Assembly (NCBI RefSeq): GCF_001420005.1
Contig: NZ_LJAK01000003.1
Location: 1-64,000 of the forward strand
Direction: 5' to 3'
Origin: Loktanella sp. 3ANDIMAR09
GTDB taxonomy: Bacteria > Pseudomonadota > Alphaproteobacteria > Rhodobacterales > Rhodobacteraceae
DNA length: 64,000 nt
The position numbers were made by a program, and so were the translations under genes. Positions 34,209 through 39,881 of the stretch are shown here, piece after piece. Within the stretch, counting starts at the first letter, position 1. Each line of letters begins with the position of its first letter. Under the pieces are notes generated by a model, which was given only the letters and a program-made list of their open reading frames with translations, did no database searches and was not told the origin of the DNA.

Positions 34209-34239
34209 TGTGATCACAGTAATATCGCGTGTGATCACA
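34209..34239. promoter_or_regulatory. Tandem palindromes TGTGATCACA upstream of sucC
   Basis: Two perfect copies of the 10-base palindrome TGTGATCACA lie at 34209-34218 and 34230-34239, exactly 21 bp (two helical turns) apart. They are 96 to 126 bases upstream of the sucC ATG and downstream of the mdh terminator. The same arrangement occurs before sdhC. This looks like a cooperative operator for a TCA-cycle regulator; which regulator is unknown. Confidence 0.75.
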
Positions 34240-34277
34240 AGACACATTTTGTTCACGGTGATCCGTTCTGAAACGAC

Positions 34278-34305
34278 AAAGGGCGCCCCGCGGGGCGCCC
34301 TTTTT
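34278..34305 (-). terminator. Terminator after mdh
   Basis: AAAGGGCGCCCCG and CGGGGCGCCCTTT form a perfect 13-base palindromic stem (34278-34303) with flanking A and T runs, 22 bases after the mdh stop on the minus strand. It separates mdh from the suc operon, so sucC needs its own promoter. The symmetric runs could work in both directions. Confidence 0.85.
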
Positions 34306-34326
34306 CAACCGTGCAATCCTGTGTGA

Positions 34327-35289
34327 TCAGGCGAGCGAAGGATCGATTTCCTTGCAGGCGGACACAAGGCCCTTCACCGCGTCGACGGATTTGTCGAACA
34401 TCGCCTGCTCTTCCTTGTTCATCTTGATTTCCACGACGCGTTCGACACCGCCTGCACCGATGACAGTCGGCACACCGACATAGAACCCGTCGAGGCCGTA
34501 GGCCCCATCGACATGTGCCGCACAGGGCAGGACGCGCTTTTGGTCCTTGAGGAACGATTCGGCCATTTCGATGGCTGACGTGGCGGGCGCGTAGAACGCT
34601 GATCCGGTTTTCAGCAGGCCGACGATTTCCGCGCCGCCGTCACGGGTGCGCTGCACGATGGCGTCCAGCTTGTCCTGGGTGGTCCAGCCCATGTCGACCA
34701 GATCGGGCAGGGGGATGCCTGCAACGGTGGAATAGCGTGTCAGCGGCACCATCGTGTCGCCGTGGCCACCCAGCACGAATGCAGTCACATCGCGCATCGA
34801 GACCTTGAATTCCTCGGCGAGGAAGTGGCGGAAGCGGGCGCTGTCGAGCACACCGGCCATGCCGCAGACCTTGTTGTGGGGCAGGCCGCTGAATTCGCGC
34901 AGTGCCCAGACCATCGCATCCAGCGGGTTGGTGATGCAGATGACGAATGCATCGGGGGCGTGTTCCTTGATGCCTTCGCCCACGGCCTTCATGACCTTGA
35001 GGTTGATGCCCAGCAGGTCGTCGCGGCTCATGCCCGGCTTGCGCGGCACGCCGGCGGTCACGATGCAGACATCTGCGCCAGCGATATCGGCGTAGTCATT
35101 CGTGCCCTTGAAGGAACCGTCGAATTTGCCCGAAGGACCGGATTCGGCGATATCCAGCGCCTTGCCCTGCGGTGCGCCCTCGGCGATGTCGAACAGGACG
35201 ACGTCGCCCAGTTCCTTAACCGCTGCGAGGTGGGCGAGTGTGCCGCCGATCTGTCCGGCGCCGATCAGTGCAATCTTGGGTCTGGCCAT
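34327..35289 (-). CDS. mdh: Malate dehydrogenase
   Basis: The product is 320 residues of the LDH-like malate dehydrogenase type found in alphaproteobacteria. The NAD motif is [36 protein letters not shown] holds the substrate Arg residues; [23 protein letters not shown] holds the catalytic His. It oxidises malate to oxaloacetate. The ATG at 35289 gives the normal N-terminus [10 protein letters not shown]. It is transcribed toward the suc operon but ends at its own terminator. Confidence 0.97.
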
Positions 35290-35425
35290 GGAATGGTTCC
35301 TGTCTAGCAAGTTAAACTTGGGCGTTGGGTTAGTCCTTTGGTGGTCAGCCTGCAAGTGCGACGGTCATGGTCAATGCGTGCTTTCGTCGCTAACAATTTG
35401 AAAATCCCCTGTGTGAAAGCGTTTC

Positions 35426-37986: not shown

Positions 37987-38543
37987 CATTACTTATTCTG
38001 GGCCTGCTTTTGTGGGTTGCGGCGCATACCTGGAAACGGGTCAGCCCGGGAACGCGGGCAGATATGGGCGACCGAGGGCGTCTGTTTGCGGCCCTGGCGA
38101 TCATCGCGTCCGTCGTCTTGATGGTGATCGGCTACCGGGCTGCTGACGGCGCGGTCTATTGGGGGCGCGCTGGCTGGTCCACCGGCGTGAACAACCTGCT
38201 GATGTTGGTGGCGTTCTATATCTATGCGGTCGGTGCGCCCAAACCCGGCAAGCCGCGCGTCTGGCTGGGTCGCAAGATCCGCCATCCGCAGTTGATCGGT
38301 TTTTCGATCTGGGCCGTGGCGCATCTGCTGGTCAACGGTGATGTGCCGTCGTTCGTGTTGTTCGGCGGGTTGCTGGTCTGGGCGCTGGCCGAAATCGTCC
38401 TGATCAACCGGGCCGAACCGGAATGGACCCCGCCACCGCACCGCAGCGCGCGCAAGGAATTCATTCCCATCGTCGCCGCCATCGTCATCTATGCGATCGT
38501 CGCGGCAATCCACATCCTGCTTGGCTACAACCCGTTCGGATAA
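37983..38543 (+). CDS. NnrU family membrane protein
   Basis: The product is 186 residues with about five membrane helices. The conserved RHPQLIGFSIWAVAHLLVNGD near the middle is the signature of the NnrU/Z-ISO family, whose members act in nitrite/NO metabolism or as heme-dependent carotene isomerases. No denitrification or carotenoid gene is nearby. The start overlaps the CoA-lyase stop by four bases, so it is coupled to an acyl-CoA enzyme; its role there is unknown. Confidence 0.85.
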   Translation: MTLLILGLLLWVAAHTWKRVSPGTRADMGDRGRLFAALAIIASVVLMVIGYRAADGAVYWGRAGWSTGVNNLLMLVAFYIYAVGAPKPGKPRVWLGRKIRHPQLIGFSIWAVAHLLVNGDVPSFVLFGGLLVWALAEIVLINRAEPEWTPPPHRSARKEFIPIVAAIVIYAIVAAIHILLGYNPFG

Positions 38544-38546
38544 GAC

Positions 38547-38753
38547 ATGACAAAACTTTATCGACTGCTGACCGAAGACGACACATCCGCGTTCTGCCAC
38601 AAGGTGTCCGATGCCCTGTCCAAAGGGTGGGAGCTGTATGGCACGCCGACCTATGCCTTTGATCATGCCAATGGCGTGATGCGCTGTGGTCAGGCCGTCA
38701 CCAAGGACATCAGCGCCGATTACGATCCCGACATGAAGCTGGGCCAGCAATGA
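38547..38753 (+). CDS. DUF1737 family small protein
   Basis: The product is 68 residues, starting KLYRLLTEDDTSAFCHKVSDALSKGWELYGTPTYAFD. This matches the DUF1737 family of short proteins, found almost only in proteobacteria, with a conserved GWELYGSP-like motif. The function is unknown. It lies three bases after NnrU and overlaps the mesaconyl-CoA hydratase gene by four bases, in a four-gene operon. Confidence 0.82.
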   Translation: MTKLYRLLTEDDTSAFCHKVSDALSKGWELYGTPTYAFDHANGVMRCGQAVTKDISADYDPDMKLGQQ

Positions 38754-39775
38754 CCAAAACCAACGCCGGGCGGTTTTTCGAGGATTATCGCGTGGGTGAC
38801 GTCATCACCCATGCGGTGCCGCGCACCATCAAGATGGGTGAACGCGCGTTGTATCATGCGCTGTATCCCGCCCGGCACGCGCTGCATTCGGCCGATACAT
38901 TCGCGCAATCCTGCGGTCTGCCGTTCAGCCCGCTGGATGATCTGGTCACCTTTCATACGGTGTTCGGCAAGACAGTCCCCGATGTATCGCTGAATGCGGT
39001 TGCCAACCTCGGTTATGCCGAAGGTCGCTGGCTGACACCGCTCTGGCCCGGTGACACGATCACCGCCACGTCAGAGGTTATCGGGGTCAAGCAAAACTCC
39101 AACGGCAAAAGCGGCGTTGTCTGGGTTCGCACCACGGGGCGCAATCAGCATGGCGACGAACTGCTGTCCTACGTCCGCTGGGTGATGGTGCGCAAACGTG
39201 GTGACGGGCCTGCGCCGGAAACCGTGATCCCGAAACTGATGGACGCTGTGGGGGCCGATGAACTGGTGATCCCGGCGGGCCTTGATTTCAGCGCCTATGA
39301 CTTTGAGCTGGCAGGCGAGCCGCATCGCTTGCGCGATTATGCGATCGGCGAGGTGATCGACCACGTCGATGGTGTCACCATCGAAGAGGCCGAACACATG
39401 CTGGCCACCCGGCTGTGGCAGAACACGGCCAAGGTGCATTTCGATGCCACCAACCGCCCGGATGGGAAACGCCTGATCTATGGTGGGCATGTCATCAGCC
39501 TGGCCCGTGCACTGTCGTTCAACGGATTGGCCAATGCGCAGATGATCGTCGCGCTGAACGGCGGTGCCCATGCGAACCCCTGCTTTGCCGGCGATACCGT
39601 TCGAGCATGGTCCGAGGTGCTGGACATTGCCGACACGGCGGCCCCCGGTGTTGGTGCCATCCGCCTGCGTCTGGTCGCCACCAAAGGTGCGACAGGTGCG
39701 TTGCGCGATGCCGAGGGCAAATACCTGACGGATGTCTTGCTGGATCTGGATTACTGGGCGCTGATGCCGGTCTGA
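38750..39775 (+). CDS. mch: Mesaconyl-CoA hydratase (MaoC-like, two hot-dog domains)
   Basis: The product is 341 residues with two MaoC hot-dog halves. The first includes GRFFEDYRVGDVITHAVPRTI and VFGKTVPDVSLNAVANLGYAEGR; the second includes AKVHFDATNRPDGKRLIYGGHVISLARALSFNG. Length and sequence agree with mesaconyl-CoA hydratase of the ethylmalonyl-CoA pathway, which interconverts mesaconyl-CoA and beta-methylmalyl-CoA. It is the last gene of the CoA-lyase/NnrU/DUF1737 operon and overlaps DUF1737 by four bases. The downstream 245-base gap holds the sdh promoter. Confidence 0.9.
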   Translation: MTKTNAGRFFEDYRVGDVITHAVPRTIKMGERALYHALYPARHALHSADTFAQSCGLPFSPLDDLVTFHTVFGKTVPDVSLNAVANLGYAEGRWLTPLWPGDTITATSEVIGVKQNSNGKSGVVWVRTTGRNQHGDELLSYVRWVMVRKRGDGPAPETVIPKLMDAVGADELVIPAGLDFSAYDFELAGEPHRLRDYAIGEVIDHVDGVTIEEAEHMLATRLWQNTAKVHFDATNRPDGKRLIYGGHVISLARALSFNGLANAQMIVALNGGAHANPCFAGDTVRAWSEVLDIADTAAPGVGAIRLRLVATKGATGALRDAEGKYLTDVLLDLDYWALMPV

Positions 39776-39850
39776 TCGGCTGGGAGTGCGGGCGACTCGC
39801 TTGTCCGGTATCGCGCGGTTTCTGCAGGGTTACATCAACCCGTGACCGGT

Positions 39851-39881
39851 TGTGATCACGCTTTGAAATTTTGTGATCACG
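39851..39881. promoter_or_regulatory. Tandem palindromes TGTGATCACG upstream of sdhC
   Basis: Two copies of TGTGATCACG lie at 39851-39860 and 39872-39881, 21 bp apart, 140 to 170 bases upstream of the sdhC ATG. Each differs from the perfect sucC palindrome at one end base, and each is preceded by T (TTGTGATCAC). The shared spacing indicates the same dimer-of-dimers operator as before sucC. Confidence 0.75.

Follow-up and report, generated by a model that had tools for sequence, protein, structure and literature searches.

Do the two pairs of short palindromes that precede the sucC and sdhC genes of Loktanella sp. 3ANDIMAR09, a member of the Rhodobacteraceae, answer to one regulator, and if so, to which? 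The pairs lie in a stretch of 64,000 nucleotides (positions 1 to 64,000 of contig NZ_LJAK01000003.1, forward strand; hereafter the window), where an earlier note had spotted them by eye and proposed a single regulator for both operons. Our analysis makes it very likely that they are twin operators of an AkgR-type regulator of the GntR family, encoded in the same window at 23763-24410, which activates sucCDAB-lpd and sdhCDAB, two operons of the tricarboxylic acid (TCA) cycle, together.

Twin palindromes before sucC and sdhC

The suc pair consists of a promoter-proximal operator at 34209-34218 and a promoter-distal one at 34230-34239, each reading TGTGATCACA, and lies between mdh and the minus-strand sucC, 96-126 nt upstream of the sucC start. 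In the sdh pair, the distal operator at 39851-39860 and the proximal one at 39872-39881 each read TGTGATCACG, and the pair is 140-170 nt upstream of the sdhC start (40021). All four sites, to which no strand is assigned, were identified from the sequence and are conserved in relatives. Both pairs are spaced 21 bp centre to centre, and their positions and letters match exactly the two 21-bp pairs described before. The earlier remark that the 64 kb hold no further copy agrees with the motif count: exact TGTGATCAC occurs in the window at these four sites alone, giving six strand hits against 0.72 expected, a number that 0 of 100 shuffles attain. Across the whole genome (3,674,828 bases in 34 contigs), an exact 21-bp pair of TGTGATCAC is found at the suc and sdh places only. 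Tolerating up to three mismatches brings in, from other contigs, places with three mismatches, and otherwise just the sdh pair again, read on the minus strand with two mismatches.

Scanning a collection with one genome per species returned at least 119 loci, a sample of which most members appear to come from the organism's own family, Rhodobacteraceae. The pair sites in these loci number at least 124, with 73 before sucC, 47 before sdhC and four unassigned, three of the latter near the end of the retrieved stretch and one in a Streptosporangiaceae record. With the gap between the two sites left free (2-32 bases), a pair is present in 105 of 120 own-family genomes; among the 83 places listed in this draw, the spacing is 21 bp in 74, 20 bp in five and another value in four. 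With the gap fixed, 5 of 385 genomes drawn from the whole class match, namely four of the five own-family members and one of the 380 others, and the fifth own-family member (G067) has the pairs when the gap is free. Conservation before the two genes in related genomes had been put forward in the earlier note as a check on the idea, and the result bears it out, as 120 of the 124 sampled pair sites precede sucC or sdhC and the pairs are common in the family (105/120, free gap) versus the remainder of the class (1/380, fixed gap).

A regulator gene inherited with the pairs

No relative of the GntR proteins of the Loktanella genome was found inside the at least 119 sampled pair loci (E ≤ 1e-3), and the regulator was therefore sought elsewhere in the genomes. 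The Loktanella genome has five FCD-domain genes, one of which adjoins lpd. This gene, the proposed source of the binder, lies at 23763-24410 on the plus strand and encodes a GntR/FCD protein of 215 amino acids that matches PF00392 (43 bits) and PF07729 (64.6 bits), both above cut-off. When its orthologs are called at E ≤ 1e-60, the 120 own-family genomes divide into 101 with both the ortholog and an exact pair, 13 with neither, four with the pair only and two with the ortholog only (Fisher p = 2.7e-12, uncorrected for ancestry). Both ortholog-only genomes have near-exact pairs, with one mismatch at sucC and one at sdhC in G076, and one at sucC and three at sdhC in G052. Among the genomes with neither, G121 retains the AkgR-type gene as fragments (L229, G121:C56) and has no suc or sdh pairs, and G033 has a two-mismatch pair that stands beside neither sucC nor sdhC.

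The regulator genes of relatives frequently have an operator of their own. Of 24 AkgR-type genes, 13 carry GTGATCAC in the 120 nt before their projected start, as do 21 in a further set of 27 (34 of 51 in all); the shuffle rate is about 0.1% in both gene sets. These are single sites, 32 of them at -11 to -27 and the other two at -53 and -64. Because several self-sites in the first set of 24 genes sit closely after a TTGAC box, the arrangement suggests that AkgR represses its own gene through the single site.

Two central-carbon regulators of Rhodobacter had been named in the earlier note as candidates, though it could tie the motif to neither: AkgR, which we take to be RSP_0981, and CceR, presumably RSP_1663. 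GTGATCAC is given among the AkgR binding sites of Rhodobacter sphaeroides, and AkgR is termed a transcriptional activator (PMC6365646). RSP_0981 is a GntR regulator with predicted control of sucCD, sdh and 2-oxoglutarate dehydrogenase (PMC4344238), and its tag is close to the sdh tags RSP_0974-6. Around relatives of the window regulator (22 short stretches), lpd is present in eight and sdhB in one. Together, the published site, the RSP_0981 prediction, the co-inheritance and the self-sites back the candidacy of AkgR, and on this comparison of sequences and distributions AkgR is most likely the binder of the pairs. The proposals of one regulator shared by suc and sdh, and of a pair of dimers separated by some two turns of the helix, are likewise supported.

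The operator itself is of a GntR kind. The general pattern NyGTNxACNy is satisfied by TGTGATCACA, in which GT-GATC-AC puts GT and AC at a distance of 4; in the FadR subfamily, this distance is mostly 3, and 2 in several groups (PMC4494728). At the metal-ligand positions of its FCD domain, the window regulator has N136, H140, H183 and D205, none of which varies among 15 aligned rows. The usual FCD metal ligands are Asp-His-His-His, a set that the window regulator does not have. Because N, H, H and D replace the usual residues, the effector site of AkgR-type proteins may differ from the common FCD one.

Helical phasing of the sdhC promoter

In the sdhC promoter of the window, a putative -35 element GTGACT lies at 39939-39944 (plus strand), at an offset of 88 from the pair start, and a putative -10 element CAGATA with a weak match follows after a 17-bp spacer at 39962-39967 (plus strand). 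A GTGAC -35-like box is present in 44 of 46 sdhC promoters, at offsets from the pair start of 76-78 (two promoters), 87-90 (31), 99-101 (five) and 108-110 (six). Whole helical turns separate these offsets. In about one quarter of shuffled stretches, a slightly broader form of the box motif also turns up; with a separate -35/-10 matrix, 41 of the 46 best sdhC promoters fall at 78, 87-90, 99-101 or 108-110, and shuffles have no such peak. The promoters that do not belong to the main class, 13 in number, fit whole turns better than all 200,000 draws with uniform phase. They are not independent of one another, but on the best SdhCD tree, which covers 40 of the promoters in these and the main class taken together, nine changes of offset class are needed.

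The DNA between operators and promoter is itself periodic. Downstream of the pair, A/T content oscillates every 9.5-10.5 bp or so in the sdhC and the sucC sets alike, above jittered controls, and upstream of the pair this period is absent for sdhC. At 48 bp upstream of the -35 box, a position chosen afterwards as the maximum of the profile, A or T is found in 44 of 44 promoters. The first of the phased blocks in the window is ATTT at 39891-39894 (plus strand), by the proximal sdh operator, which from its phasing could be a contact of the C-terminal domain of the RNA polymerase alpha subunit (alpha-CTD).

Proposed joint activation and its alternatives

In the mechanism that we propose, two AkgR dimers would bind 21 bp, or two helical turns, apart on one face of the DNA. 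At sdhC they would sit roughly 98 and 119 bp ahead of the presumed transcription start, and at sucC in a comparable position, from which they would activate sucCDAB-lpd and sdhCDAB jointly via RNA polymerase. Activation would require the dimers to be on the polymerase face, and the A/T-rich stretches that recur each 10-11 bp would probably hold the alpha-CTDs or aid bending of the DNA. The single operator near the start of the AkgR gene would probably serve autorepression in most of the sampled relatives. We lean slightly towards a stricter version of this mechanism, a geometric code in which a family-wide regulon of two operons combines twin sites on the polymerase face and a single self-site with an operator-promoter distance that evolves solely by whole turns, every turn gained retaining an A/T stretch positioned for an alpha-CTD.

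Several observations weigh against this account. Exact pairs without the ortholog are present in G031, G045, G108 and G126, three of which are 74-91% complete, with G126 listed as 100%. No operator was found upstream of 17 of the 51 AkgR-type genes, nor upstream of the window's own regulator gene, which overlaps the preceding YgjP-like gene by four bases. For sucC, a weak A/T period is also seen upstream of the pair, and the -35/-10 matrix gave no clear box and no phase preference in the sucC promoters, whose start was not placed. Searches with the reversed pattern returned 0 pairs in the Loktanella genome, both exactly and with up to three mismatches, yet this control is lenient since the reversed motif contains CTAG, which is rare in many bacteria; in the class draw, the reversed pattern matched 1 of 385 genomes (G205). 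As a control we prefer the matches of the original pattern outside the family (1 of 380 class genomes). The putative orthology between the window protein and RSP_0981 rests on locus-tag neighbourhood, co-inheritance and the motif. The activating direction in our model follows the wording of PMC6365646 and the activation that the primary AkgR paper reportedly describes.

AkgR might alternatively bind the pairs and repress suc and sdh until an effector relieves the repression, a reversal of sign that we consider unlikely. Many GntR/FCD proteins are repressors, and the geometry of the self-sites by the regulator gene start itself appears repressive; however, some 60 bp separate the proximal sdh site from the -35-like box downstream of it, and the two keep in helical phase, a placement that suits activation and not blocking. 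Repression by looping would also require phasing, yet the window contains no other exact TGTGATCAC, and the term used for AkgR is transcriptional activator (PMC6365646). It is improbable, too, that another GntR/FCD protein, such as the conserved L160 family (G000:C4:265585), binds the pairs. GTGATCAC is compatible with the general GntR operator pattern (PMC4494728), and L160-type proteins (68-78% identity) are among the FCD loci fetched from 10 of 12 genomes and, at E ≤ 1e-40, turn up in 15 of the 25 tested. The distribution of L160, which served as the control FCD regulator, is nonetheless uncoupled from that of the pairs: relatives of 67-69% identity are present in G033 and G121, which have no suc or sdh pairs, and L160 was not found in the pair-bearing G102 and G127 at the same threshold among the 25 genomes tested (G127 is 81% complete). 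No TGTGATCAC is located near L160 in the Loktanella genome.

We regard binding of the pairs by CceR, a LacI-family protein, as very unlikely. RSP_1663 is predicted to control sdh and mdh (PMC4344238), and the R. sphaeroides CceR regulon includes succinate dehydrogenase and 2-oxoglutarate dehydrogenase (PMC11323563). Against this, the motif printed for RSP_1663, [A/G/T]GTT-N6-8-AAC[A/C/T] (PMC4344238), is a different one and is not matched by TGTGATCAC as read at the operator sites themselves; sdh and 2-oxoglutarate dehydrogenase also fall outside the P. denitrificans CceR regulon (PMC11323563). Because both enzymes belong to its R. sphaeroides regulon (PMC11323563), CceR may control these genes too, by way of sites of its own. 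That the pairs arose by chance, or form a structural DNA motif bound by no protein, is exceedingly improbable: the palindromic form is the sole point in its favour, and it is opposed by the near-restriction of the pairs to the family described above and by their co-occurrence with one regulator gene. The preferred binder of both pairs is the AkgR-type protein.

Genes and other features

The suc operon is on the minus strand and comprises sucC (succinyl-CoA ligase subunit beta, 32920-34113), sucD (succinyl-CoA ligase subunit alpha, 30747-31634), sucA (2-oxoglutarate dehydrogenase E1, 27715-30672), sucB (dihydrolipoamide succinyltransferase, 26480-27715) and lpd (dihydrolipoyl dehydrogenase, 24596-25984). 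On the plus strand, the sdh operon comprises sdhC (40021-40404), sdhD (40417-40788), sdhA (40803-42608) and sdhB (42949-43728). The genes sucA, sucB and sdhD were named from sequence and gene order and the others with Pfam/NCBIfam; the name of mdh was also confirmed with Pfam or NCBIfam.

Single copies of TGTGATCAC amount to 31 strand hits in the Loktanella genome. We considered them as further targets and set them aside: 23 of the 24 copies examined outside the window fall within an open frame of at least 100 codons, a weak test in that the suc sites also fall within such a frame, and one that did not include the copy at C21:6996. The copy outside long frames, at G000:C6:87604, spans the tail of one gene as well as the DNA immediately preceding a Tat-signal protein, and we took it for a chance occurrence. 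Between mdh and the suc pair, at 34281-34305, inspection by eye shows GGGCGCCCCGCGGGGCGCCC, a perfect inverted repeat rich in GC; five T residues come after it on the plus strand, and the arrangement resembles a terminator. The inverted repeat GGGTT-ACATC-AACCC lies shortly before the sdh pair, at 39827-39841, and its spacer of 5 bases falls outside the 6-8 of the printed CceR motif. Elsewhere in the genome, a GntR/FCD gene at G000:C6:86045-86629 (L163, L171) has an in-frame stop in its FCD part and is possibly broken.

Comparison with known systems

In outline, the regulator and its targets are already known from R. sphaeroides. The AkgR regulon of that species shares with the present one a GntR-family regulator, GTGATCAC sites and the predicted targets sucCD, odh and sdh (PMC6365646, PMC4344238); here, a GTGATCAC operator likewise stands before sucCD-odh and sdh, and the regulator is co-inherited with the operators. 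What differs is that the layout is described family-wide, and that 34 of the 51 regulator genes sampled have a single self-site. For the twin layout, its spacing, the gene co-occurrence, the self-site and the whole-turn phasing, no description was found in the literature searched, which consisted partly of excerpts and did not take in the primary AkgR paper; novelty is thus possible for the layout, the co-inheritance and the phasing. A motif first noticed by eye is hereby connected, throughout a large family of bacteria, with a named regulator of the TCA cycle, and the regulator gene is in the same window.

PS417_07240, the deoxyribonate regulator of Pseudomonas simiae, is also gntR-like, is 32% identical to AkgR and carries, at -47 to -40 relative to its gene, a palindrome that reads GTGATCAC; in contrast to the system described here, it has one conserved palindrome, located before its own catabolic cluster and not before TCA genes (PMC6365646). 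We also inspected three regions (L275, L276 and L277) around plasmid FCD relatives of 38-41% identity. GTGATCAC is present upstream of the relative in L276 and was not found in the L275 or L277 regions inspected. In the case of the L276 relative (Shinella sp. PSBB067, 41%), TTTGTGATCACATTTT precedes the matched stretch by about 160 bp, so a wider subfamily may share the motif.

The targets of McbR (YncC) differ from suc and sdh. By sequence, this protein is the closest solved relative of the aligned regulator family (PDB 4p9f, E = 1.6e-24).

The whole-turn shifts among sdhC promoters amount to a natural experiment on the distances and angles that are permitted between activator and promoter. 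In class I activation by CRP, an upstream activator works at distances that differ by whole turns, and the sdhC promoters resemble that system in varying their activator-promoter distance in the same steps. In contrast to CRP, the twin GntR dimers would be placed further upstream, at about -98 and -119, with phased A/T stretches between them and the promoter.

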